Shown here piece after piece: positions 6,020-19,881 of a stretch of 20,416 bases of DNA. The notes beneath the pieces are model-generated. The model saw nothing but the letters and a program-made list of their open reading frames with translations, was not told the DNA's origin and ran no database searches. This DNA comes from a virus, in IMG/VR virus record IMGVR_UViG_3300029309_000435, positions 1 through 20,416 of that record. One strand, written 5' to 3'. Both the position numbers and the translations under genes were made by a program. The stretch's first letter is position 1. Every line of letters starts with the position of its first letter.

Positions 6020-7432
6020 ATGGCAGAAGAATTTGACTATTTAAAAGATTCTAAATTTGGTAAGTTAGCTACTAATATTCTTGATAAAAGAGAAAAAGAT
6101 AATGATAGATTACTACCAACTGGAGGAAATTTATTAGCGTTGTTCGCAGACGTTGCTTCTAAATATATAACTAAAAAGAATAGAGATTTACAACAAGAAC
6201 AAGCTACAAATATTGAAACTTTAACAAGGCAATATAATGATGTTATCGGCACGAGAAAAGATTTTTTTAATAGTAGTGCTATAAAAAAACAGAGAGAAGA
6301 TTATCAGCTTTGGAAAAATCCAGAAACAAAACAGAAAGCAAGATTAGCAAAAGCTATAGAATATTTTAATCAAGATAAAGATATGATAGAAGAGTTTGGA
6401 AGTATGAATCCTTATAATGAATATTTAAAACTTCCTAAAAATTCTAAAAACGCTGAGTTAATGAATGATGCACTAGAGCTTCTAATGGGTCAAGCAGATG
6501 TATATTTTGAAAGTATAAATGACGATGCTATAGTCGTGCCTACACAAGCAGAATATTTAAGAGAAGTTAAACAAGCTTTTGAAGCTGCACTAAAGGAAGC
6601 AAGGAATGACCCTACTAAAAAAACTTTTTTACGAAAACAATTTTTAAAAGCATTTGGAAGAGATGAAAAAGGTAATCCTAGATTTGGTTTAGTCAATCAA
6701 GATGAGTTAAAAAATCTAAGAGTAAATGCTGAAGAGGCTGCTGGTATTGGTAGAGATAATCCTTTAGCAATGGTAAGTGATTTAGATATAGAGCAAAGAG
6801 AAGCAGATAAAGCTAGAGTTTTTGAACGACCTGATTTAAGTGAGTTTGATTTTCTTACTCAAAAACCAAAAAGTTCTAAACCTAATCCTGTTGATAGACG
6901 TGTTTTAATAGATGCTAGTTCTGACGTTAGGAGTCTTTTTAATGACCAATACAAATTTGATATTGTAAATAATGATGGAGCTAAGAAAAATTTGTCTTTC
7001 TATTCTGTATACAAAGGTCTTAAAAACTATAATGGTAGTAATCAAATGCAAGGTCAATATAACCAAACGAATCTTATATATGATGTATTAACCCTATCAA
7101 AAACTGCTAGAGCAGAATTTGAAAAAACAAATTACGATGGTGATGTAAGAAGTGCTGAATCATTTTTAGTACCTGCGATACAAGAAGTATTTGATAGAAT
7201 GTCTAACGGACTGCCTTCTTTAGGCTTTGAAAATACTATGGAGGTAATAGCACCTGATGAAATGGTTGAGTTTACTAGCAATGGTACAGACTATAAAATG
7301 TCAATACAAGAAGTTGCTGAGACATTTATTGGTAAATCCAATGAAGAAAAAAACGACTGGATTGATAATATAGAATTTGAACCGAAGTATAAATTTGTAT
7401 TTGATGTGTTAAGACGTAGGGATTATGAATAA
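6020..7432 (+). CDS. Probable internal virion/ejection protein, 470 aa
   Basis: 470 residues, highly charged and mostly helical, starting two bases after the preceding stop. It holds a basic N-terminal helix region (residues about 5-60), a central helical domain with alternating Lys and Glu/Asp, and a C-terminal domain ending FEPKYKFVFDVLRRRDYE. No signal peptide, membrane segment or catalytic motif is seen. It sits immediately before the giant 1695-residue protein and overlaps its start, a position like that of the middle core protein gene (gp15) of T7-like phages. Homology to gp15 is not visible by eye; only the order supports the analogy. Confidence 0.75.
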   Translation: MAEEFDYLKDSKFGKLATNILDKREKDNDRLLPTGGNLLALFADVASKYITKKNRDLQQEQATNIETLTRQYNDVIGTRKDFFNSSAIKKQREDYQLWKNPETKQKARLAKAIEYFNQDKDMIEEFGSMNPYNEYLKLPKNSKNAELMNDALELLMGQADVYFESINDDAIVVPTQAEYLREVKQAFEAALKEARNDPTKKTFLRKQFLKAFGRDEKGNPRFGLVNQDELKNLRVNAEEAAGIGRDNPLAMVSDLDIEQREADKARVFERPDLSEFDFLTQKPKSSKPNPVDRRVLIDASSDVRSLFNDQYKFDIVNNDGAKKNLSFYSVYKGLKNYNGSNQMQGQYNQTNLIYDVLTLSKTARAEFEKTNYDGDVRSAESFLVPAIQEVFDRMSNGLPSLGFENTMEVIAPDEMVEFTSNGTDYKMSIQEVAETFIGKSNEEKNDWIDNIEFEPKYKFVFDVLRRRDYE

Positions 7433-10400
7433 TGTCTAATAGGGAAAAATCAATACAAGAGCTGATTGCAGAAAAAGCAAGTACTCCTAAAACAACAGAA
7501 ATTTCTTTAGAGTCTATACCTGAAACAAACTTAACTGAAGAAAAAGTTGTAGAAGGTTTAGAAGAGAAAGATGACATACATATAGAACTAGACAAGAAAA
7601 ATAGACTTCTAGATGATGACATTTCTGAATTTAGAAAATTTAATTATGGTGCAGAACAAGAAACTCATATCCTAGGAAATTTATGGAGACAAGGAAAAGC
7701 TCTTTATAGAAGTGCAACTTCTGATGAGTTGACTTTAACTTACTCAGAAGCTGCTCGTCAAATAGAAGCTGAAAGACAAGAAGCTATTTTTGAAAAATTT
7801 CCAGAGTTTAGAGGTAAAGAAGAAGATGCTGCAGTAATCGCTGGAAGAGTAGCTACAGGATTTCTTGACCCAGTTGCTCTTGCAGTTCCTTGGACTAGAA
7901 TAGCTCAAGCAGGTAGAATAGCTACCATTACAGCAGGGGGAGCTTTTTCTGCTGGAGATATAGCACTTAGAGAATATTCTTTGTATGGAAGGGTAAGTCC
8001 TTATAGTGTAGGACTTGCTGCAGGTTTAGGTGCTGGAGCAACAACTATTAGTTCCGTAATAGCAGATAAAATTAATAAGGCAATTCCCAGTGGTAAATTA
8101 ATTACTGTTGATGAAACTGGTAAGCCAGTAATTACTAACATGTCTAGGATTGATGCTGAAGATACGTTAGGAGATTTAAGTCCAGAAATAAAAAGAGGTT
8201 TGGAATTAGTTTCAAATGATGTATACAAAGTTTCTGGTCCATACATTGCTAGGTTTTCAAAAGATTTAGAAAGTTTAGGAGTTAAATATAATAAAAGATT
8301 AATAGCTAGAAATGAATTAAAAAAGCATCAAAAACAATTAGAACAATTAGAAAGAATTGGCTTAGATAAACAAGTAGAATTATTTAAAGGTGGTCAAGTT
8401 GAGCAGGTTAAAAAGATAATAGATGCTCAGAAAAAATTAGTAGAACAGTATCAAAAAGAAATTGATGATATTCTACTAAAACAAATGCCGGAAGATTTAG
8501 GCGTTGTTGGTTTTGAATCTTTTAAAAGAGCTTATCAAGCAGGATTATTAAAAGGAAGGATTGGTGAACAACTAACACGAGCTTTTGTACAAGAAGCAGT
8601 TAGACCGTTAATAGGAGCAGTTGGTGGCTTTGCTGCTGGAAGTGCTATGGGTGCTAATGATAATTCTGCGTATATGTCAGCAGCTATAGGAGCTGGTATA
8701 ACGATGGGAATTATATCTAAAAGATTAGAGCTTGATAAAGGTATACCTAAAGAAGTAGTATCTTTCTTTAAAAAGGAAGGAGAAAAAGTTTTTAAGCGTA
8801 ATTGGAGAACTAATTTAAATTTAACTTTATTTGGTGCTGGAACTCACGCTTCTTATATGCAATCTCGTAGCTCAGTTTTAAGAGACTTTAGTGAAGATTT
8901 ATATGGATATAGAGGAAATGCTTACGATTTAGGTAAGCCTATGAGACCAAACATAGAAGAGTTAAGGTACACGAGTAATGATTATTTTAGAAAGCAAGTA
9001 TTTGACCTTTTACAAGATGTTGACGATGACACTATTTTAACTGCTGGTAGAATAATACAACAGCAAGATGCTCCTTCTAATATGAAGTATAACTTTATAG
9101 AAAAAGGAGATTTAGATAATAAACAAGCTGTAGAATTAGCTAATAAATTTATAGGTATTAGAAAAGAAATAAAAGACTATGCAGAAAAAGCAGGTCTTAC
9201 TTTTACTGAATTAGATTCTTATGGATTAACGCAGATACTAGATTCTGAGGAAGTTAAGAAAATGGGATTTGCGAATGCTCAAAAAATAATAGCTCAAGCT
9301 TTTATAATACAAAGTAAAAACCTAAGTACTAAAGATTCAAAAGTAAAAGTATTGACAAAAAAAGAAGCTAATAGATTAGCAATAAAATATTTAAATCATT
9401 CTGATAATGTTAGAAGACAAGAGGTATTAGACGAAGTTAGTATAACTGATGACACTTTTAAACTTATTAAGAATGATGGTAAAAAAATTAAAAAAGGAGA
9501 AAGTCTTTTACAAGCTTCTAAATATTTAGCAAACGAAAGAACTTTAGTAGACCCTGAAGCTAGAGCATTTGCTAAAAATCTTTTTATTCAAGACCCAGAG
9601 TTTACGACACTAAGACTTTCAGAGAATATTGTACCCGTTGCAGAGTTTGCTAGGCGTTATGGAGAAAAAGGTCAAGGACTAAGAAAAGTTTTTGCTGATA
9701 TTAAAAAGTATTACAGTCAGTTTGGTAATGTAGATACTAATTCTTCTTTACAAAAATTAGTTAGAGAAGATTTTGAACAAGTTAGAAATAGTGTAAATGC
9801 TTACTTTGGTGTCTATGATTTAAGAGGTGGTATAAGAGGTAGTGATGCATTTAAAAGTGTAATGTTAACTTTACAAACTTTATTATCAACTACAAAACTA
9901 ACTAAAGTTGCTTTACCTTCTTTAGGAGATTTACTACAAGTAATACAAAACAGTGGCTTCAAGGCAGCAGCTAATTCTGCATATTTACAAATGAAGCAAA
10001 GAGGTTCAAAAGCAATAAAACCTTCTGCTGCTTTAGCTCAAAGAAGCCCGACTGATGAAACCGGTATAATTTTTAAAGAGCCTATTTTTGGTAGAAAATT
10101 TGGAAATAGAAAATATAGAAATACTTTAGAAAGAGAGCTTAGTGATTTTTCACAAGCAGCTACTACTCGTTATCAACAAGGATTAATAAACTTTCAAGGA
10201 AGATTTTTTGAGATAGTTCAATTAGGTAGAGTAACTAGATTTGCTAGAGAATTTGCTTATGATGCTGGAGCATTTAGAATTTTTGATTTAGGTAAAAAAG
10301 CTGCTACAGGTAACTTAAGTAAAGCACAAATAAGAGAAATAAATCTTTTAGGTTTTAAACCTGAAGAAATAAAATTTTTAAGTAAGTTTAAAAGTATGGA

Positions 10401-12519
10401 TGATGCTTTTAAAAATCCTGAAGGTAAAATAGTTATTGACATAGCTGGAAGAAGGTCTGCAGATAGAGATGCATTAATACCACAGATAGGTAATAGAAGA
10501 TTATTTTCTCAATCTAGAGACCCTATGATGAAATTTGCTGGAAGTTTTTTATCTTGGGCACAAGCAAAAGCTACTCAAACTAACTCATTGGTTAGAAGAA
10601 TAGAGGATGGAGATGCTAAATTAGCTTTAATGATGTTAGCATCTTTGCCTATATATGGAGCAGTTAGAAGTTTACAAATATCTATGAACTCAAGTGAAGA
10701 ATTTAGAGAGGAGCATCCTAACTTTTTATCTGGATTTGAAAACGAAGGAGACCTTAGAAAGTTTATTGCAGACTCACTAATTTTTAGTGGGCAAACTTTA
10801 CCATTTAGTATAGATAAATTAGTTAACTTTGTGAAGTATAGTAATTCAGATATAACTGAATCTATCTATCCTGTACTAGGATTTCTAAACGATTTATTTG
10901 GAGCAGTTAGAACTGGAATTAAAGGTAAACCTTTTACCGGTATTAATAGATTAGTTGAAACTGTAGTTCCTTTTGGTAAGGATTTTACTCGTTCTGAAAA
11001 AGTTGGAGAGGCTCTAGGTCTTCCCGATACTATCGAAGGGGAAGCTAAATTTAGGGATTCAGATAGAGCTCTAAGACTAAACTTTGTAACGGGTGGAGAA
11101 GTTGAAGGAGAAGAAGTTCCATTTACTCAAGAAAATCCTGCAGATAGAATTAATCCATTGACAGGAGAACCATACAGTCAAACTTCAAAAGGTGTCTTAG
11201 CTACTTTAAAAGATAGACAAGAAGATAGAATTCCTAAAACCTATGGTGGTTTGTTAAATAATTTACAAAGACGTAAAAAGTTTGCGTTAGGTGCTACTGT
11301 TGCTGGACTACTTACTAGAGAAATACTTGACCAATTACCTAACAAAGTTTATCGTGGAGGCTCAAGTAGAATTATTACCAGTAAAGAAGGAACTTCATCA
11401 GTGTTTGCAACTCCAGATAAGATAATGGCTGACTCTTTTGCTGACCCTAAATCTGTTGCGAAGTCAATGGTAACAGATGGTGAGTCTTTAAAAATGAAAG
11501 ACAAACTTAATCTACATGAAATTGATATAAGTGGTGCTAAAAATCCTTATGTACTAGACCAACCTAGTGAGGCAATGAAAATTAGAATAGAGAGAGCTTT
11601 GATGAAGGAGGGGAATAGTGATGCTAGAAATGATGCGTTAAATTCTTTACTAAATCCAGAAGATTTTGATATAAGAGTAGCCTCCTCTGATTTTTATAGG
11701 GTAAACAGAGAGGTTGGTAAGTTTTTAAAAGACGAAGGCTATGATATAGCTTTAGATAGTAGAACTTTGCAAAAAGGTTTTAATAATAATCCAGAAGCAG
11801 AGTTATTTATTTTAGGTAAGTTTCCTGTAAAAGCTATACCTAGACTAAAAGTTAAAGGTCAGGAAATTGAAGGTGGAGATTTAGTTACCTTTAAAGATGT
11901 AGCTAAAAAAGTAGACGAGCCACCTACAGTAAAAGTTCCAACATGGTTTAAAGAAACTCAAGTTAAAACTGATGTTAACCCTGCTGATGCTCAAAAAACT
12001 CAAGTAGGTATAACCTCTGGAACTTATAAAAAAGTAGTGCCTTTATTAAAGACAGGTAATACTTTAGACTTTGGTGCAGGTTTAGGTAAAGGTGCTAAAA
12101 TATTAAAAGCTGATAGCTATGAGCCGTTTCCTAAAAAAGGTTTTGAACCTACCTTTACAGAAACATCTGCAATACCTAATAGTTCCTATGATAATGTAGT
12201 CAGTTTAAACGTTCTCAATGTTGTTAAACCTGATGTTAGAAATGATATAGTTTTAGATATAGGTAGAATTTTAAAACCAGAAGGTATTGCTATTATAACT
12301 ACCAGAGGCTCTGACATTTTTGGTAATAAAAATAATATTACTAAAGGTGTCTTGTCAAACTTAGAAGAAGGTGCTATAATAACAAGTAGTGGCACTTATC
12401 AAAAAGGTTTTACTAATCCAGAGTTAAAAGAATATGTTAGTGGCTTACTAGGCGATATGTTTGAAGTAGAAAACATTACTGGTCTAGGTAAGGCAGGTAT
12501 AAAAGTTACAAAATTATAA
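7432..12519 (+). CDS. Giant internal virion (ejection) protein with C-terminal ART-like and methyltransferase-like domains
   Basis: 1695 residues, TAATG overlap with the previous gene. The N-terminus is charged; residues about 135-210 and 390-430 are Gly/Ala-rich hydrophobic segments; residues 290-350 are coiled coil. Residues 800-1180 include a conserved-looking core around FAGSFLSWAQAKATQTNSL (1035-1053), typical of large phage ejection proteins. The size and position match the giant last core protein (gp16-like) of podoviruses. The C-terminus differs: residues about 1305-1470 look like an ADP-ribosyltransferase fold (VYRGG, SSVFATP, ADSFADP, then AELFILGKFPVKAI), and residues about 1530-1640 resemble a class I methyltransferase (LDFGAGLGKG, then SYDNVVSLNVLNVV and LKPEGIAIITTRG). 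No lytic transglycosylase motif was seen. The ejection role is inferred; the two C-terminal folds are motif-level calls. Confidence 0.85.
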   Translation: MSNREKSIQELIAEKASTPKTTEISLESIPETNLTEEKVVEGLEEKDDIHIELDKKNRLLDDDISEFRKFNYGAEQETHILGNLWRQGKALYRSATSDELTLTYSEAARQIEAERQEAIFEKFPEFRGKEEDAAVIAGRVATGFLDPVALAVPWTRIAQAGRIATITAGGAFSAGDIALREYSLYGRVSPYSVGLAAGLGAGATTISSVIADKINKAIPSGKLITVDETGKPVITNMSRIDAEDTLGDLSPEIKRGLELVSNDVYKVSGPYIARFSKDLESLGVKYNKRLIARNELKKHQKQLEQLERIGLDKQVELFKGGQVEQVKKIIDAQKKLVEQYQKEIDDILLKQMPEDLGVVGFESFKRAYQAGLLKGRIGEQLTRAFVQEAVRPLIGAVGGFAAGSAMGANDNSAYMSAAIGAGITMGIISKRLELDKGIPKEVVSFFKKEGEKVFKRNWRTNLNLTLFGAGTHASYMQSRSSVLRDFSEDLYGYRGNAYDLGKPMRPNIEELRYTSNDYFRKQVFDLLQDVDDDTILTAGRIIQQQDAPSNMKYNFIEKGDLDNKQAVELANKFIGIRKEIKDYAEKAGLTFTELDSYGLTQILDSEEVKKMGFANAQKIIAQAFIIQSKNLSTKDSKVKVLTKKEANRLAIKYLNHSDNVRRQEVLDEVSITDDTFKLIKNDGKKIKKGESLLQASKYLANERTLVDPEARAFAKNLFIQDPEFTTLRLSENIVPVAEFARRYGEKGQGLRKVFADIKKYYSQFGNVDTNSSLQKLVREDFEQVRNSVNAYFGVYDLRGGIRGSDAFKSVMLTLQTLLSTTKLTKVALPSLGDLLQVIQNSGFKAAANSAYLQMKQRGSKAIKPSAALAQRSPTDETGIIFKEPIFGRKFGNRKYRNTLERELSDFSQAATTRYQQGLINFQGRFFEIVQLGRVTRFAREFAYDAGAFRIFDLGKKAATGNLSKAQIREINLLGFKPEEIKFLSKFKSMDDAFKNPEGKIVIDIAGRRSADRDALIPQIGNRRLFSQSRDPMMKFAGSFLSWAQAKATQTNSLVRRIEDGDAKLALMMLASLPIYGAVRSLQISMNSSEEFREEHPNFLSGFENEGDLRKFIADSLIFSGQTLPFSIDKLVNFVKYSNSDITESIYPVLGFLNDLFGAVRTGIKGKPFTGINRLVETVVPFGKDFTRSEKVGEALGLPDTIEGEAKFRDSDRALRLNFVTGGEVEGEEVPFTQENPADRINPLTGEPYSQTSKGVLATLKDRQEDRIPKTYGGLLNNLQRRKKFALGATVAGLLTREILDQLPNKVYRGGSSRIITSKEGTSSVFATPDKIMADSFADPKSVAKSMVTDGESLKMKDKLNLHEIDISGAKNPYVLDQPSEAMKIRIERALMKEGNSDARNDALNSLLNPEDFDIRVASSDFYRVNREVGKFLKDEGYDIALDSRTLQKGFNNNPEAELFILGKFPVKAIPRLKVKGQEIEGGDLVTFKDVAKKVDEPPTVKVPTWFKETQVKTDVNPADAQKTQVGITSGTYKKVVPLLKTGNTLDFGAGLGKGAKILKADSYEPFPKKGFEPTFTETSAIPNSSYDNVVSLNVLNVVKPDVRNDIVLDIGRILKPEGIAIITTRGSDIFGNKNNITKGVLSNLEEGAIITSSGTYQKGFTNPELKEYVSGLLGDMFEVENITGLGKAGIKVTKL
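11344..11841 (+). other. ADP-ribosyltransferase-like domain in the ejection protein
   Basis: Residues about 1305-1470. The order of motifs is VYRGG (candidate NAD-binding Arg at 1308), SSVFATPDKIMADSFA (Ser-Thr-Phe-like strand and helix), and a closing strand AELFILGKFPVKAI. This matches the layout of ART-like domains in phage polyvalent proteins (Y-H/R-G, then F-T-P with an A-x-x-F/Y helix, then a final V/F-F-x-x-x-x-I-K strand). The catalytic Glu or Gln of the third motif is uncertain; Glu1455 or Glu1457 is a candidate. Confidence 0.5.
12019..12516 (+). other. Class I SAM-methyltransferase-like domain in the ejection protein
   Basis: Residues about 1530-1695. Motif I is LDFGAGLGKGAKIL (1545-1558), an acidic post-strand residue follows in SYEP (1562-1565), and the SYDNVVSLNVLNVV strand (1585-1598) is followed by a helix and LKPEGIAIITTRG (1614-1626), the usual pattern of a small Rossmann methyltransferase. 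No DPPY/NPPY-type motif for DNA amino-methylation is seen, so the substrate cannot be guessed. Confidence 0.65.
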
Positions 12520-12525
12520 TAAATA

Positions 12526-12891
12526 ATGTATAAATACTTTACAGAAGATGAACTAAAATGCAAACACACCGGTCTATGTGATATGGACTGGGCATTTATG
12601 CAAACAGTTGAAAGGATTAGAGAACGTTGTGGTTTCCCTTTCAAAGTAAGCAGTGCTTATCGTTCTCCAGAGCATCCCATAGAAGCTAAAAAGAGCACCC
12701 CCGGAGCTCATTCTTCTGGTAAAGCTATGGATATACTTGTCAACGGAGAACAAGCCATGACACTCGTTAAAATAGCTCTGGAAGAGGGTATTAATAGGAT
12801 AGGAGTTGCACAAAAAGGAGACCGTGCTTCGAGATTTATTCATCTAGACATGGATAACTCACGAGCCACTCCTCGTATTTGGAGCTACTAA
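12526..12891 (+). CDS. M15 family peptidase, probable endolysin
   Basis: 121 residues matching the short peptidase M15 (D-Ala-D-Ala carboxypeptidase/L-Ala-D-Glu endopeptidase) fold. The zinc-binding pattern is visible: SAYRSPEH (residues 43-50), GAHSSGKAMDI with His62 and Asp69, and FIHLDMD with His106. Such proteins cut peptide crosslinks in peptidoglycan and are common phage endolysins. No signal peptide or membrane anchor is present, so export would need a holin. It follows the ejection gene by six bases without an obvious ribosome binding site, and the next gene starts in its stop codon. With the holin downstream it forms the lysis cassette. Confidence 0.9.
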   Translation: MYKYFTEDELKCKHTGLCDMDWAFMQTVERIRERCGFPFKVSSAYRSPEHPIEAKKSTPGAHSSGKAMDILVNGEQAMTLVKIALEEGINRIGVAQKGDRASRFIHLDMDNSRATPRIWSY

Positions 12892-13145
12892 TGTTAATAT
12901 TATACAGAGAAAGAGATTTAGACGAAGCATATAGAATAGATTGTAAAGCTAGAACCAAAGGTAACGAGCCTTGGATAAAGCGAGAAGATTTTAGAAACAT
13001 CTATGAAGCTTTACTAGATACATACTTTACAAATTCTGTAGAAAAAAAACTAGAGCAAAAAGAACAAGACGTTGCTGAATATGTTATTGAGCAAGTCAAC
13101 AAAGCTCTAGAAAGAACTATAGACTTTGACCCTGAAATAAAATAA
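12891..13145 (+). CDS. Small charged phage protein, unknown function
   Basis: The start at 12891 (84 aa) overlaps the peptidase stop as TAATG and has a GGAG eight bases upstream, so I prefer it to the in-frame ATG at 12879. The protein is helical and strongly charged, begins MLILYRERDLDEAYRIDCKA, and has no membrane segment, so it is not an obvious spanin or holin. Two Cys/Trp-containing patches (IDCKA, EPWIK) may be part of a small fold. It lies between the endolysin and the MscS-like gene; a role in lysis timing is possible but unproven. Confidence 0.7.
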   Translation: MLILYRERDLDEAYRIDCKARTKGNEPWIKREDFRNIYEALLDTYFTNSVEKKLEQKEQDVAEYVIEQVNKALERTIDFDPEIK

Positions 13146-13146
13146 T

Positions 13147-13506
13147 ATGGACTTAGAACAATACTATGTCGAGGCTATCGGCTTTATAATAACTTTACTA
13201 ACTGGTCTAGCTTTGAAAGACTGGTCTATGTCTTTTGTAAAAGGTGCTTCGTTTAGACTTAGTAACTCTTTTAAAGAAGGAGACAAAGTTATTCTCGATG
13301 GACAAGTAGCAATGATAATTAAAATAGGGTTTACCCAAACTGTATTCGGGGTATACTCAGATGATGGATATACATGGAGGTATATTCCCAATCAAAAGAT
13401 AGATTCTATAAAACTTGAAAAAGTTGTAGACCAAGATTTACATGCTGACTCAGCTATAGAGAAGGCAGAAAAACTTAGAAAAATATTGGAGGCAAAAGAT
13501 GTTTGA
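13147..13506 (+). CDS. MscS-like mini membrane protein (pore helix plus beta domain)
   Basis: 119 residues. Residues about 9-33 form a membrane segment ending GLALKDWSMSF, followed by GASFRLSNSFKEGDKVILDG (33-52), an IGFTQTVFG strand (60-68) and a YIPNQKI turn (79-85). This is the order in MscS channels: TM3 with a GLAL-x-(D/G) pattern, the P/S-F-x-x-G-(D/E)-x-V beta-domain entry, then the IPN-x-K-(I/L) hallmark. TM1, TM2 and the large cytoplasmic alpha-beta vestibule are missing; full MscS is about 286 residues. It sits in the lysis cassette between endolysin and holin, and its end overlaps the holin start by eight bases. It could form or gate an inner-membrane pore, act as an antiholin, or answer osmotic change. 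The match is by eye but strong. Confidence 0.75.
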   Translation: MDLEQYYVEAIGFIITLLTGLALKDWSMSFVKGASFRLSNSFKEGDKVILDGQVAMIIKIGFTQTVFGVYSDDGYTWRYIPNQKIDSIKLEKVVDQDLHADSAIEKAEKLRKILEAKDV

Positions 13507-13861
13507 TAAATTAATTAAACCAGTAAGTGATATAGTTGGTAAGTTTGTAAAAGACAAAGACTTACAAGCACAACTAGACCACGAACTAAAAACATTATTC
13601 CATCAGGCTAATTTAGCACAAGTAGAAATAAATAAACTAGAAGCAAAAGGCAACTGGTTTCAATCTTCATGGCGACCACTAACAGGTTATGTTTGTGTTG
13701 CCGGATTAGCTATTAACTTTTTAATCTCACCAATAGCAAAAGGTTTTGGTATAGATATACCACAAGCTGATGCCGGTGTAATGATGCCACTTCTAACAGG
13801 TATGTTAGGAATTGCAGGAATGAGAAGTTACGATAAACTAAAGAAAACAGATTCAAAATAA
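13499..13861 (+). CDS. 3-TM holin (GTA-type holin family)
   Basis: 120 residues. An N-terminal amphipathic, charged region (residues 1-55) precedes SSWRPLTGYVCVAGLAINFL (about 55-74), a second hydrophobic stretch (ISPIAKGFGI) and a third (VMMPLLTGMLGIAGMRSYDK, about 92-112). The S-x-W-R-P-x-T-G motif and the closing G-x-A-G-x-R-S-Y-x-K are typical of the Holin_3TMs family found in phages and gene transfer agents. A GGAGG ribosome binding site lies about seven bases before the ATG. It would permeabilise the inner membrane at the end of infection and release the M15 endolysin. It is the last clear + strand gene. Confidence 0.85.
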   Translation: MFDKLIKPVSDIVGKFVKDKDLQAQLDHELKTLFHQANLAQVEINKLEAKGNWFQSSWRPLTGYVCVAGLAINFLISPIAKGFGIDIPQADAGVMMPLLTGMLGIAGMRSYDKLKKTDSK

Positions 13862-15411: not shown

Positions 15412-15636
15412 TCATGGTTTAAGAAATTCTGGTTTGTCAAAAAAAATAAACATTGTTATAAAAGGTAATATACCTATACCGATTACAAAAATAGATGGTA
15501 ATATTACTGCCCAAAACATAGGATTCTTTGTCATAAAATCTAGGTCTTTATTATTCATACCTTTCTTTTTATCTTCTTCAGTGTAATCTGGATACGATAA
15601 AGAATCTTCAAATCTTTTGACATGTTTTGGTTTCAT
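15412..15636 (-). CDS. Single-span membrane protein co-translated with the cytochrome c
   Basis: 74 residues. A polar, charged N-terminus (residues 1-38, Lys-rich) is followed by one hydrophobic span at about residues 41-66 (FWAVILPSIFVIGIGILPFI onward) and a short tail FFDKPEFLKP. The positive-inside rule puts the N-terminus in the cytoplasm and the tail outside. Its ATG overlaps the cytochrome stop in an ATGA junction, so the two are probably translated together and may act together, for instance as a membrane dock for the cytochrome or as a small oxidase-type subunit. I do not recognise a family. Confidence 0.75.
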   Translation of the reverse strand: MKPKHVKRFEDSLSYPDYTEEDKKKGMNNKDLDFMTKNPMFWAVILPSIFVIGIGILPFITMFIFFDKPEFLKP

Positions 15637-16064
15637 AAAGTATCAATGTAAGCTTGTAAATTTTCCATATCTTCAAGAGTTAGGTTAGCAGCTTGACCCC
15701 ACATGAGAGCAGATTGTGCACCCCTAGTCTCTCCATTTTTATATTGCATTAACATTTTTACAATAGATGTACTTCCAGATAATTTTGGTCCAATACCTCC
15801 TTCTCCTTTCATACCATGACACATATTACAATTAACATATATCTTAGCACCTTTATCAGCAGGTGTTTCTGTTTGCATTGCAACTCTTTTTGCTTCTAGT
15901 TGTTCTATAAATGTACCATACTTTGCAGTATATTCTTCATAACATTCTCCCCAACAACCATGTACATCTCCATAACCAGACACGTCTGCGTTTATAATAG
16001 TTGTATAAAGTATTCCACCGATACCTAAAACTCCAACTAATAACATTGCTATACTGTGTTTCAT
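15633..16064 (-). CDS. Mono-haem c-type cytochrome, membrane-targeted
   Basis: 143 residues from the ATG at 16064, chosen because GAGGGA sits four bases upstream and the ATG follows the nrdA stop; an in-frame GTG at 16076 inside nrdA is less likely. Residues 5-25 are a hydrophobic signal or anchor (IAMLLVGVLGIGGILYTTI, possible cut after INA). Residues 70-143 are a class I cytochrome c: CNMCH at 79-83 (Cys79 and Cys82 bind haem, His83 is axial), GIGPKLSG, then a probable axial Met121 in ALMWGQAANLTLEDMENL and a final helix. Two extra cysteines (37 and 41) may form a disulfide. It needs host periplasmic haem ligation. It would carry electrons in respiration; the redox partner is unknown. Confidence 0.92.
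   Translation of the reverse strand: MKHSIAMLLVGVLGIGGILYTTIINADVSGYGDVHGCWGECYEEYTAKYGTFIEQLEAKRVAMQTETPADKGAKIYVNCNMCHGMKGEGGIGPKLSGSTSIVKMLMQYKNGETRGAQSALMWGQAANLTLEDMENLQAYIDTL
15816..15830 (-). other. Haem c attachment motif CNMCH
   Basis: Read on the - strand, these five codons give Cys-Asn-Met-Cys-His, the CxxCH signature for covalent haem c attachment. It is the only CxxCH in the protein, so one haem is expected. Confidence 0.95.
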
Positions 16065-16065
16065 A

Positions 16066-17961
16066 TTATCCCTCACAAGCTATACAGTCCACTTCATCTA
16101 GTTTTATTCGTGGAACTTTTATATTAACATTTTCTGCTGCTCTAGCTGCATCAGACCTAAAGTAGTATAGTGATTTTAATTTATGCATACCATACCAATG
16201 CACATCATTTACATACTGCATGTATTCATCATGGGCATTTTGTTCTTCAGTTGCTTTTGGTAACACGAAAAATAAATTTATTGATTGGCTTTGACAGAGA
16301 AACTCTTGTCTTTTATGAGCATGTTCAATAATCCATATTTGATTTATTTCATTAGCAGTTTTAAATAATTCTTTTTCCGTATCATCTAACATAGAAAGAT
16401 GTTGTACTGAGCCGTTATTACCGGCAATATCTTTCCAAACGTTGTCAAGTTCTTCCCCTTTTAATCCTTTACTTTTTAAAACTTTTTCCAAGTATTTATT
16501 TTTTACTTGATAACTACCTGATAAAGTTTTGTGAGTAAACACATTTGCCCTGTAAGGTTCTACTGAGGGAGACGTACCAGCACATATAATACTACTACTA
16601 GCGTTAGGAGCAACGGCAAGGAGATTAGCATTACGCATCCCAGAACCAGATACATCAGGTGCTTCACCACGAATATCAGCCAGTTCCTCACTAGCTTTCG
16701 TAGCTTTCTTTTTAATGTGTTTAAACGCTTGATAGTTGAATCCCGTAGCTTGGATTCCTTCAAAAGGTATGCCGTTTGATTGTAGATAGGCATGAAAACC
16801 CATCGCACCCAATCCCAAAGAACGCTCTCTGTAAGCTGAGTAAGCAGCTTTTGTAAATCCTTCTTTACCATCTTTGACATATCCTTTAAATCTTTTAAAG
16901 TTTGCATTATATTCTCCCAGTTGTGATGTGTCAATAGCATTCTCAATAAAATGTTGTAGAACATTATCTAACATAGTTATTAAATCTTTTATAAAGTAAT
17001 CATCTTTAGACCATTCATCATAATGTTCTAAGTTAACACTAGACAAACAACATACTGCTGTTCTTTCTTCGTTAGTAGGTAGAGTTATCTCTGAACATAA
17101 GTTGCTTTGTTTTATTTCTAAGCCTAAATCTTTTTGTCCTTGTGGTAGGGCATCATTACAGTTGTCTATGTTTATCATATAAGGTTCGCCTGTTTCTGCT
17201 CTAGCGTAGATAATCTGCCACCATAACTCTCTAGCGTTTATAGTTTTAACTGCCTCGTTTGTTTTAGGGTCTATTAATCTCCAGTCTGCATCATCTCTAA
17301 CAGCTTTAAGAAAATCATTAGTGATGTTAATACCATTGTGTAAGTTTAAACACTTTCTATTTATATCTCCACCAGATTCTTTTCTCATGTTTATAAACTC
17401 TTCAATCTCTGGATGCGATATATCCATATATGCAGCATAGCTACCACGTCTAGTTACGCCTTGATTAAAGGCTAACATCTGAGAATCAACTACATGGATG
17501 AATGGAATACTTCCAGTAGAACGACTCCCGCTAGAAGTAGAAATACCATTACTCCTAATATCTCCCCAGTATCCACCAATTCCACCACCTGAACTAGCCA
17601 ACCAAATATTTTCGTCATAGTGAGAAGATAAACCGTCACGACTATCGGGAACATAATTAAGAAAACAGCTAATGGGAAGACCACGAGTTGTTCCCCCGTT
17701 ACTAAGTATAGGAGTGCTAAACATGAACCAACAATCGGAACTGTAGTTATACAGTCTTTGAGCCATTTCATAATCTGTAACACCCTTGAAAGTGGCAGCA
17801 AATACTGCAGCCCTAGCAAAAGCTTCTTGTGCATGTGTTTCTTCCTCCCAGAAATATCTATCTCTTAGTGTATCTAAACTAAACTTGTCTAGCTTTTTTT
17901 CTTTTTCGTAATTTATTTCAATACCTAAATAAGGTTTTTGTCCTACTTTATCTTCTACCAT
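16066..17961 (-). CDS. nrdA: Ribonucleotide reductase class I alpha subunit (R1), lacking the ATP-cone
   Basis: 631 residues; makes deoxyribonucleotides with NrdB. Catalytic elements are visible: Cys99 (GLPISCF), N-x-C-x-E with Asn287, Cys289 and Glu291, a second redox Cys at 304 or 305, the radical-transfer tyrosines 599-600 (SLYYF), and a C-terminal Cys626-x-x-Cys629 that takes electrons from thioredoxin or glutaredoxin. The first 30 residues run straight into the R1 core; the roughly 100-residue N-terminal ATP-cone of many NrdA proteins is absent, which is known to remove dATP feedback inhibition. The ribosome binding site is weak (AAGAA-like) and the gene follows the DUF3310 gene by five bases. 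The next gene, a cytochrome, begins at its stop. Confidence 0.97.
   Translation of the reverse strand: MVEDKVGQKPYLGIEINYEKEKKLDKFSLDTLRDRYFWEEETHAQEAFARAAVFAATFKGVTDYEMAQRLYNYSSDCWFMFSTPILSNGGTTRGLPISCFLNYVPDSRDGLSSHYDENIWLASSGGGIGGYWGDIRSNGISTSSGSRSTGSIPFIHVVDSQMLAFNQGVTRRGSYAAYMDISHPEIEEFINMRKESGGDINRKCLNLHNGINITNDFLKAVRDDADWRLIDPKTNEAVKTINARELWWQIIYARAETGEPYMINIDNCNDALPQGQKDLGLEIKQSNLCSEITLPTNEERTAVCCLSSVNLEHYDEWSKDDYFIKDLITMLDNVLQHFIENAIDTSQLGEYNANFKRFKGYVKDGKEGFTKAAYSAYRERSLGLGAMGFHAYLQSNGIPFEGIQATGFNYQAFKHIKKKATKASEELADIRGEAPDVSGSGMRNANLLAVAPNASSSIICAGTSPSVEPYRANVFTHKTLSGSYQVKNKYLEKVLKSKGLKGEELDNVWKDIAGNNGSVQHLSMLDDTEKELFKTANEINQIWIIEHAHKRQEFLCQSQSINLFFVLPKATEEQNAHDEYMQYVNDVHWYGMHKLKSLYYFRSDAARAAENVNIKVPRIKLDEVDCIACEG
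16069..16074 (-). promoter_or_regulatory. Ribosome binding site that sets the cytochrome c start
   Basis: GAGGGA on the - strand lies in the last codons of nrdA, four bases ahead of the ATG at 16064. This favours a 143-residue cytochrome over a start at the upstream GTG (16076), which has no such signal at normal spacing. Confidence 0.7.
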
Positions 17962-18507: not shown

Positions 18508-19363
18508 TCGTAACCTCTATAACTTTAGGTGGTCTTGGTGTTTGTGTGAGATAACTATATCCTCTTGAATATTTAAATACTCTTAGACCTAATCCATCGT
18601 TAGCATCTGAATGACATTCAAACTTATGTCTGCAATATACACATTCTTTAGGAAGTTTCATATTGCCAGAGCTGCCTTCTGGTTCTGGATTATAACATCT
18701 TTGAGGTGGTTTGTCAAGCTTTATTGCTTTCTTAACATCTCTTATTTTCTTTTTAATATTAGGTTTATCAAACTCAGAAGGTCTGAACAAAGCTAACTCT
18801 CCGGTCTCTTTATTCATAGCTAAGAAGCCGCCTTTTTGTGTACCTTCAGCTTCTTCGTAACCTGCAAGTTGTGGAAGATAGCCGAACGTATCTTGCTCTG
18901 CTAACGTACCGTCTTTAAATTTCTTGAAAGCAAAGCCTGAAGCAGTCTTAATATCTACTACTTCTCCGTCTATAGTACAATCCATGTGTCCTTTAATACC
19001 AGACACGGATACTTCTTTCTGTTCATTACCTACTTTATGTCCAGAAATCTTTACTAAAAATAATAATACTTCTTCTAATAAATGTCCATATAAAAATTTA
19101 ATAAAAACTGGAGCAGGTAAAGACTCAGTAGACTCATTCTCTGATTTTAAATCATACCATAATTGTCTAGTAGGTTTACCAATGTTAGACATTCTTAACA
19201 TGTCAGAACTTCTTGGCGATGGGTTAGCCCAATGATGTAGTACTTCTTTAATGCTTTCTCCTAGAGCATCTATGTCTTCAGAACTAGCATCAAGAGGCTT
19301 TCCTTCTCCTAAAACAGAAATCTTAGAATAAATATCATCTACTAAGTTATCTAAATTTTTCAT
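18476..19363 (-). CDS. PD-(D/E)XK nuclease, Cas4/RecB-like with likely Fe-S cluster
   Basis: 295 residues. The nuclease core is visible: Glu97 or Glu98 in GHLLEE, Asp128 in GHMDC, the Asp137-x-Lys139 of VVDIKTAS, and a QxxxY motif (Gln165, Tyr169) typical of the RecB/Cas4 exonuclease group. Four cysteines, Cys223 and a C-x2-C-x5-C set at 241, 244 and 250, match the Fe-S cluster layout of Cas4 and AddB nucleases. No CRISPR array or cas1/cas2 is present here, so it is most likely the phage's recombination or replication exonuclease, filling the place of T7 gp6. Its ATG overlaps the previous stop in an ATGA junction. The Fe-S cluster is inferred from cysteine spacing. Confidence 0.88.
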   Translation of the reverse strand: MKNLDNLVDDIYSKISVLGEGKPLDASSEDIDALGESIKEVLHHWANPSPRSSDMLRMSNIGKPTRQLWYDLKSENESTESLPAPVFIKFLYGHLLEEVLLFLVKISGHKVGNEQKEVSVSGIKGHMDCTIDGEVVDIKTASGFAFKKFKDGTLAEQDTFGYLPQLAGYEEAEGTQKGGFLAMNKETGELALFRPSEFDKPNIKKKIRDVKKAIKLDKPPQRCYNPEPEGSSGNMKLPKECVYCRHKFECHSDANDGLGLRVFKYSRGYSYLTQTPRPPKVIEVTNEWQKSKKTT

Positions 19364-19881
19364 ATTGTTTCAATTATATTCTTAGCATCTTGTTTGCTAA
19401 TTTTAAACCATTCTCCTTTTTTCTGCTCAGAGTTTTTCTTTAGTAGCTTATGTGCTTTTTTCTCAGCATCTTTTCTATCATTAAAAAATCTACTGTAATG
19501 TAATTTATAATCTCTGAAAGGACTAGAGGTTTGGTATTGATTACATCTATCTTTAGAATCAATAGCCATACCAACTTTTACCCAACCTTTCCAAGATGGA
19601 TTACTTATAATGTATATATCTCCGCTTTCTTCTTTGTTATATAACATCTTAGCAATCTTACTGATAGCTTGTGGTTTCTTTATTTTGCCGAAAACTAATT
19701 TAGTTAAGTTACCTCCTTGCTGTAAGTATCCTTCGATAGTTCTAAACTTTCTTTTATAAAATACTAAACCATCCTCATTAAGATGATGATTGATACCTCT
19801 CTTTCTCCAAGTAGTTCCATCATACATTTTTCCATCTGCTCTGATGTCTCCGTTCTTAGGTTTTATATTAATGTGTTTCAC
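19360..19881 (-). CDS. GIY-YIG endonuclease-like protein with T5orf172 domain
   Basis: 173 residues from a GTG start at 19881, supported by an AGGAG about nine bases upstream and a 14-base overlap with the polymerase stop; the next ATG would remove 18 residues. Residues 87-160 carry the domain: GDIYIIS, VKVGMA with Lys102 and Gly104, Arg112, an A-E-K-K-A-H segment with Glu140 and His144, and the closing GEWF (156-159). T5orf172 proteins are divergent GIY-YIG nucleases seen in phages, some as free-standing homing enzymes. Residues 1-80 are basic and may bind DNA. Location between DNA polymerase and exonuclease fits a homing insertion or a replication-linked nuclease; which one cannot be told. 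Confidence 0.85.
   Translation of the reverse strand: MKHINIKPKNGDIRADGKMYDGTTWRKRGINHHLNEDGLVFYKRKFRTIEGYLQQGGNLTKLVFGKIKKPQAISKIAKMLYNKEESGDIYIISNPSWKGWVKVGMAIDSKDRCNQYQTSSPFRDYKLHYSRFFNDRKDAEKKAHKLLKKNSEQKKGEWFKISKQDAKNIIETI

Follow-up and report, generated by a model that had tools for sequence, protein, structure and literature searches.

A minimal MscS-derived membrane protein recurs beside phage lysis genes and may be a partner of the holin

The timing of phage lysis is set by membrane proteins, and the sensing step is poorly understood. The locus studied here raises the question of what a protein resembling part of a bacterial mechanosensitive channel does in a lysis cassette. The window, by which we mean the whole 20,416-base virus record that was analysed, belongs to a tailed phage. 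Its tail and internal virion genes lie on the plus strand with the lysis cassette at the plus-strand end, and the replication and nucleotide genes lie on the minus strand. The cassette runs, entirely on the plus strand, from an M15-type endolysin (12526..12891; PF08291, 3.5e-10; phrog_894 endolysin, 3e-29) through an 83-aa ORF (12894..13145) to the gene of a 119-aa MscS-like protein with an ATG start (13147..13506), hereafter called mini-MscS, and then to a holin of the GTA_holin_3TM type (13499..13861; PF11351, 1.7e-16; phrog_3427 holin, 1e-24). The ORF at 13147-13506 is real, as judged from dN/dS, the family profile and the AlphaFold2 model, and it overlaps the holin gene by 8 nt (ATGTTTGA). 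As read from the sequence, the Shine-Dalgarno-like GGAGG of the holin (13488..13492, plus strand) falls within the coding sequence of mini-MscS, 6 nt ahead of the holin ATG. The original prediction had placed mini-MscS between endolysin and holin; the position in the cassette is correct, but the 83-aa ORF separates the gene from the endolysin. A PHROG search with this 83-aa ORF returned no match, and a sub-cut-off Pfam match to Enolase_C was taken as chance.

Several other genes of the window deserve mention. A c-type cytochrome gene (15633-16076, minus strand; PF00034, 4.5e-7), with a CNMCH motif and an N-terminal hydrophobic segment, is flanked by the genes for the large and small ribonucleotide reductase, and a gene with a T5orf172/GIY-YIG-type domain (19360-19881, minus strand; PF10544, 8.3e-13) adjoins the DNA polymerase A gene. 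On the plus strand, a tail protein (120-1466) carries a C-terminal S74-type intramolecular chaperone (PF13884, 3.2e-11), and a 1695-aa internal virion protein (7432-12519) has a methyltransferase-like C-terminus (PF13489, sub-cut-off at 4.6e-3). Roseophages, mycobacteriophages and Microcystis phages have relatives of the latter at 32-52% identity, either alone or in a different context. The large virion protein of Pelagibacter phage HTVC103P is a distant relative as well, and an annotated counterpart of mini-MscS was not found in the stretch of that phage that was examined.

The GLAL, G-D-x-V and IPN-x-K hallmarks from which an MscS relation had been proposed are all present in the window protein, as GLAL at residues 20-23, G-D-K-V at 45-48 and I-P-N-Q-K at 80-84. 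Taken alone, this sequence only hints at MscS: it scored 12.5 bits against PF00924, below the Pfam cut-off of 20.2, had no significant match among PDB sequences, and single-sequence searches of Pfam, NCBIfam, PHROG and PDB were negative or sub-threshold throughout. We therefore built a family profile. When a 40-row profile of the family was aligned by hhalign with a profile of the TM3-beta part of MscS, built on channels of Pseudomonadota, the probability was 96.0 (P 4.8e-9), against 0.6% for the reversed profile and at most 4.6% for 200 column-shuffled MscS profiles. In the least biased test, a 42-row profile (A5) was run against 200 whole genomes from the phylum of E. coli; it matched 20 places at E <= 0.1, 16 of them MscS channels, and the top nine matches were all MscS channels (best E 6.4e-8). 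The best bacterial match is an MscS by Pfam (PF00924, 4e-17; C-terminal domain PF21082, 8.8e-8), and its alignment spans TM3 into the beta domain: GFALKDLAASFIAGLTVMIDRPFQVGDRVTFEGNYGDIITIGLRS. The relation to the MscS superfamily is thus significant for the family profile and not for the window sequence alone, and single-sequence searches by themselves would have given a wrong negative answer. The mini-MscS family descends from MscS.

The fold was predicted for the monomer by template-free AlphaFold2, with a pLDDT of 68 when an alignment of 30 close relatives was used and 84.9 with 42 diverse relatives. The latter model has a helix at residues 3-38, strands at 47-50, 53-60, 64-71, 74-81 and 90-92, and a second helix at 103-117; the long helix is kinked at K24-D25 in the first model and continuous in the second. 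The best 50 rows of a Foldseek search were all MscS-type channels, and in VIA-align residues 3-93 matched MscS 91-178 (Z 10.1, rmsd 2.7, 88 residues). A chance likeness to any Sm/SH3-like barrel was rejected, as unrelated SH3-like rows cover the barrel only and with a lower Z (7.5). Because AlphaFold2 was trained on solved structures including MscS, the predicted fold depends partly on the sequence match. The model contains an Sm-like beta domain after the TM3-equivalent helix, so that the claim of a protein reduced to pore helix and beta domain is borne out, and neither the MscS profile match nor the Sm-like barrel, on which the original prediction had been staked, is missing.

Four segments can be delimited, all on the plus strand. 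The AlphaFold2 helix and a column comparison with MscS define a TM3a-equivalent membrane helix (residues 3-22, 13153..13212), and the ungapped profile alignment and column counts define a TM3b equivalent (residues 24-38, 13216..13260). The AlphaFold2 strands and the structural match delimit the Sm-like MscS beta domain with F-x-E-G-D-x-V ... I-P-N (residues 42-93, 13270..13425), and a charged AlphaFold2 helix (residues 103-117, 13453..13497) replaces the C-terminal alpha/beta domain of MscS. The profile alignment with MscS runs without gaps from TM3 to T65; hydrophobic residues stand at the positions of MscS L105 and L109, the charged K24-D25 pair sits at the Q112/G113 kink and G33 at G121, and G45-D46, I60, T65 and P81-N82 are further equivalents that are kept. 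With the MscS superfamily (E. coli MscS, YnaI and MscK; PF00924) the protein thus shares the TM3 pore helix and the beta domain, including equivalents of the kink position, G121, G-D, T153 and P-N. An invariant W77-R78-Y79 and a K-L-E-K stretch are specific to the family.

In MscS, TM1 and TM2 bear lipid contacts and the beta domain packs the subunits together. The canonical TM1 and TM2 sensor helices and the C-terminal alpha/beta vestibule are missing in all 42 diverse members, and the pore has lost most of its Gly/Ala packing, small residues making up 28% against 53% in MscS over 13 aligned columns. The helix has a small-xxx-small-xxx-small face at residues 12, 16 and 20. Simple hydropathy counts gave no decisive number of TM helices; the charge around the helix predicts an N-out/C-in orientation in 41 of 42 members, the same as that of TM3 in MscS. 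Differing from the superfamily also in being phage-borne and adjoining holins, mini-MscS represents the MscS fold in a minimal variant, distinct from canonical MscS. To our knowledge, one helix plus a beta domain would be the smallest MscS form.

Such a small protein could be a decayed MscS fragment, which the conserved length and low dN/dS rule out. Successive scans of viral contigs found 35, then at least 187, at least 290 and at least 530 stretches encoding relatives; among the matches listed, 530 of 599 viral stretches encode one. Identity to the window protein goes down to about 40% and the contigs reach 342 kb; many relatives are carried by marine phages, usually adjoining genes that burst the host cell. 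The dN/dS values of 0.05-0.17 (four pairs) and the at least 530 relatives make the ORF more than chance. The 42 diverse members are 119-153 aa long and all start just before TM3, so that the word truncated, applied to the protein at first, is right relative to MscS but not in the sense of a fragment. Since no member of the family has TM1, TM2 or the C-terminal domain, mini-MscS is a stable minimal form of MscS.

Five family members searched against 50,697 annotated phage records gave no match, no member tested matched PHROG at E < 0.02, and no PHROG family matches the channel domain of E. coli MscS. In Pfam, only three of the 42 members match any family at E <= 0.01, namely PF00924, if one bCoV_NS7B match taken as chance is set aside. 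No close bacterial copy was found in a scan of genome contigs. In BFVD, three viral proteins of 104-138 aa are candidate members and may belong to the family. The literature already describes MscL in phages, and mechanosensitive channels in large viruses of eukaryotes; when it was searched for MscS together with phage, holin or prophage, no protein of the present kind came up. The fold family is known, and the papers searched contain no description of a one-helix form carried by phages in lysis modules.

We surveyed the neighbourhoods of the gene, bearing in mind that the loci share descent and were selected for similarity, which makes all counts patterns rather than independent trials. In four clades of smaller phages, a GTA-type holin lies within 3 kb at 51 of 51 distinct loci, mostly directly downstream with the 8-nt overlap, and in three clades of large phages 10 of 11 loci have Rz-like spanins and/or GH19 or GH108 endolysins. 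Close linkage to lysis genes is thus seen in several phage types, which supports the lysis context of the original prediction. Further clades have a small phrog_10198-type membrane protein next to mini-MscS. Over 117 distinct loci, the partner within 3 kb is the holin in 52, the phrog_10198-type protein in 26 and, in 5, a protein that combines an acidic, EF-hand-like stretch with two hydrophobic segments (EF-hand/2TM); 83 loci thus have one of the three, never two together, and 34 (~29%) have no recognised partner. When the search was seeded with the holin instead, its 80 closest relatives were accompanied by mini-MscS in 12 cases, EF-hand/2TM in 22, the phrog_10198 type in 11 and none in 35, again never by two of these. 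Because two never occur together, mini-MscS, EF-hand/2TM and phrog_10198-type proteins look like alternative second membrane components. Of the 75 closest holin relatives for which enough upstream sequence is available, only 11 have mini-MscS directly upstream, and many of the others have other small membrane proteins. The holin therefore does not need mini-MscS, and the gene is an optional accessory. In some clades mini-MscS stands beside terminase or lipase genes, and replication-side contexts also exist; the terminase and lipase neighbourhoods are the strongest reason for caution about a lysis role. In one clade (loci L469, L477, L479 and L489) mini-MscS immediately precedes and overlaps the gene of the large terminase, at a distance from known lysis genes.

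The survey also brought up other membrane proteins. The phrog_10198-type protein (L408 6336-6653; L482 6184-6528; L020 5437-5784; L529 about 2783-2986), which contains ...GAGAAWFGLYVG..., adjoins mini-MscS or GTA-type holins and occurs in about 350 phage records, mostly of Vibrio. It is a candidate unannotated holin or holin partner, although as a holin it is unproven, since its neighbours in phage Mosig are baseplate genes. The EF-hand/2TM protein (L425 6399-6821) adjoins mini-MscS in some loci and lies directly upstream of the holin in L526, L528, L531 and L534. Large-phage lysis neighbourhoods with mini-MscS (L408 3661-4840, also L404-L407 and L409) contain a gene for a MotA/TolQ/ExbB-type proton channel (PF01618, 2.1e-9), followed by a gene whose product has a single hydrophobic segment at its N terminus and may be an ExbD/TolR-like partner.

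What, then, might the protein do? A direct part in lysis, whether as second component, brake or main holin, seems probable to us. The best single explanation, advanced tentatively since we put it at somewhat less than an even chance, is that mini-MscS, an MscS derivative, would span the membrane N-out/C-in, probably form a ring and serve the lysis module as its second membrane component, which times or triggers the holin. One N-out/C-in helix (TM3a/TM3b) would be followed by the cytoplasmic beta domain, and most likely the protein would self-assemble late in infection, by way of its beta domain and the face of small residues on its helix, into a ring in the inner membrane, acting with the holin. 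In the mechanism that we prefer, the ring would pass a small ion leak, or switch state with membrane tension or energy, and thereby set the trigger time of the co-translated holin; a small leak, tension-dependent assembly and a simple brake would each fit mini-MscS, and a putative lysis phenotype would go with them. The MscS ancestry, the holin-linked clades, the spanins and unrelated endolysins in other clades, the swapping of partners and the predicted orientation favour such a lysis reading. The loci without partners, the terminase and lipase neighbours, the loss of pore Gly/Ala and of TM1 and TM2, and the absence of the gene from most holin relatives count against it.

The closest competitor, which we consider unlikely, is a brake of the antiholin kind that does not conduct: the ring would bind the holin or stabilise the membrane and delay triggering until released by tension or depolarisation. 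The overlap with the holin gene, the fixed gene order and an optional presence fitting a regulator agree with this, and the lost pore packing speaks against a real pore. Many antiholins are, however, sequence-related to their paired holin, and mini-MscS is a separate protein unrelated in sequence to the GTA_holin_3TM holins (PF11351, phrog_3427) that are its genomic partners in the window and in 52 of the 117 loci. Less probable is a function outside lysis, as an osmotic valve or membrane sensor during infection, entry or exclusion, with an incidental late-gene position. The 34 partnerless loci and the terminase-, lipase- and replication-side contexts would suit it, but position alone hardly explains why mini-MscS is paired repeatedly with lysis-type membrane proteins, only ever one at a time, and this beside unrelated endolysins (M15, GH19 and GH108). 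We doubt about as much that the phage subunit enters host MscS rings by way of its beta domain and fixes them in the open or the closed state, with turgor either preserved or lost ahead of lysis; keeping the beta domain while losing TM1, TM2 and the C-terminal domain is what an interfering subunit would be expected to do, and 58 of the 60 bacterial genomes sampled have MscS channels, but the closest bacterial relatives appear only at the profile level (E 6e-8), much of TM3a differs from MscS, and the holin pairing would lack an explanation. Least probable of all, mini-MscS would itself be the main holin or pinholin with the downstream protein as accessory, a role that the pore-former fold, the small-xxx-small face and the loci lacking a GTA-type holin within 3 kb might suggest, but a recognised holin always co-occurs in the best-sampled clades (51/51) and mostly does without mini-MscS.

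Known systems bear on the preferred reading, a holin-timing second component, in different ways. TcMscS of Trypanosoma cruzi, a miniature MscS with TM2, TM3 and the beta domain only, is a tension-gated heptamer (PMC12334622), from which it follows that the superfamily admits partial domain loss. Both proteins lack TM1 and the C-terminal alpha/beta domain around a core of TM3 and beta domain. TcMscS, however, still has TM2 and an N helix and has been proven to be a channel, whereas mini-MscS has one helix and is known from sequence and model; with one helix fewer and much of the pore packing lost, it is uncertain as a true channel. LysF1b of the mycobacteriophages Girr and NormanBulbieJr, which has one TM, a predicted N-out/C-in topology and a 2-TM holin-like neighbour, is needed for efficient lysis (PMC13056207), so that a single-TM protein of this orientation beside a holin-like protein can be needed for lysis. 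Mini-MscS resembles it in single TM, predicted topology, place in the lysis cassette and overlap with the partner holin-like gene. It differs in having a beta domain instead of an extended helical cytoplasmic domain and in a reversed gene order, and no homology was shown. The MscS-like protein of the Aureococcus anophagefferens virus, a eukaryotic virus, has 261 aa and three predicted TM helices (PMC6163359); it is likewise a virus-encoded MscS fold and was among the structural matches of mini-MscS, but unlike mini-MscS it has no reported lysis cassette.

The findings suggest that an osmotic safety valve was recruited by phages as a component of their lysis machinery. Somewhat more tentatively than for the window itself, we propose that mini-MscS may represent a widespread, so far nameless class of MscS-derived phage lysis proteins in which a one-helix ring lets membrane tension or an ion leak act on holin triggering, and that in ocean phages it may be one of several holin partners that stand in for one another. 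The same search yields two further uncharacterised families, the phrog_10198-type and EF-hand/2TM proteins, as candidate holin partners, and mini-MscS would be useful for asking what minimum of the MscS fold is needed to conduct. If the proposal is true, an MscS-derived holin partner would tie turgor or membrane tension directly, and testably, to the lysis clock.
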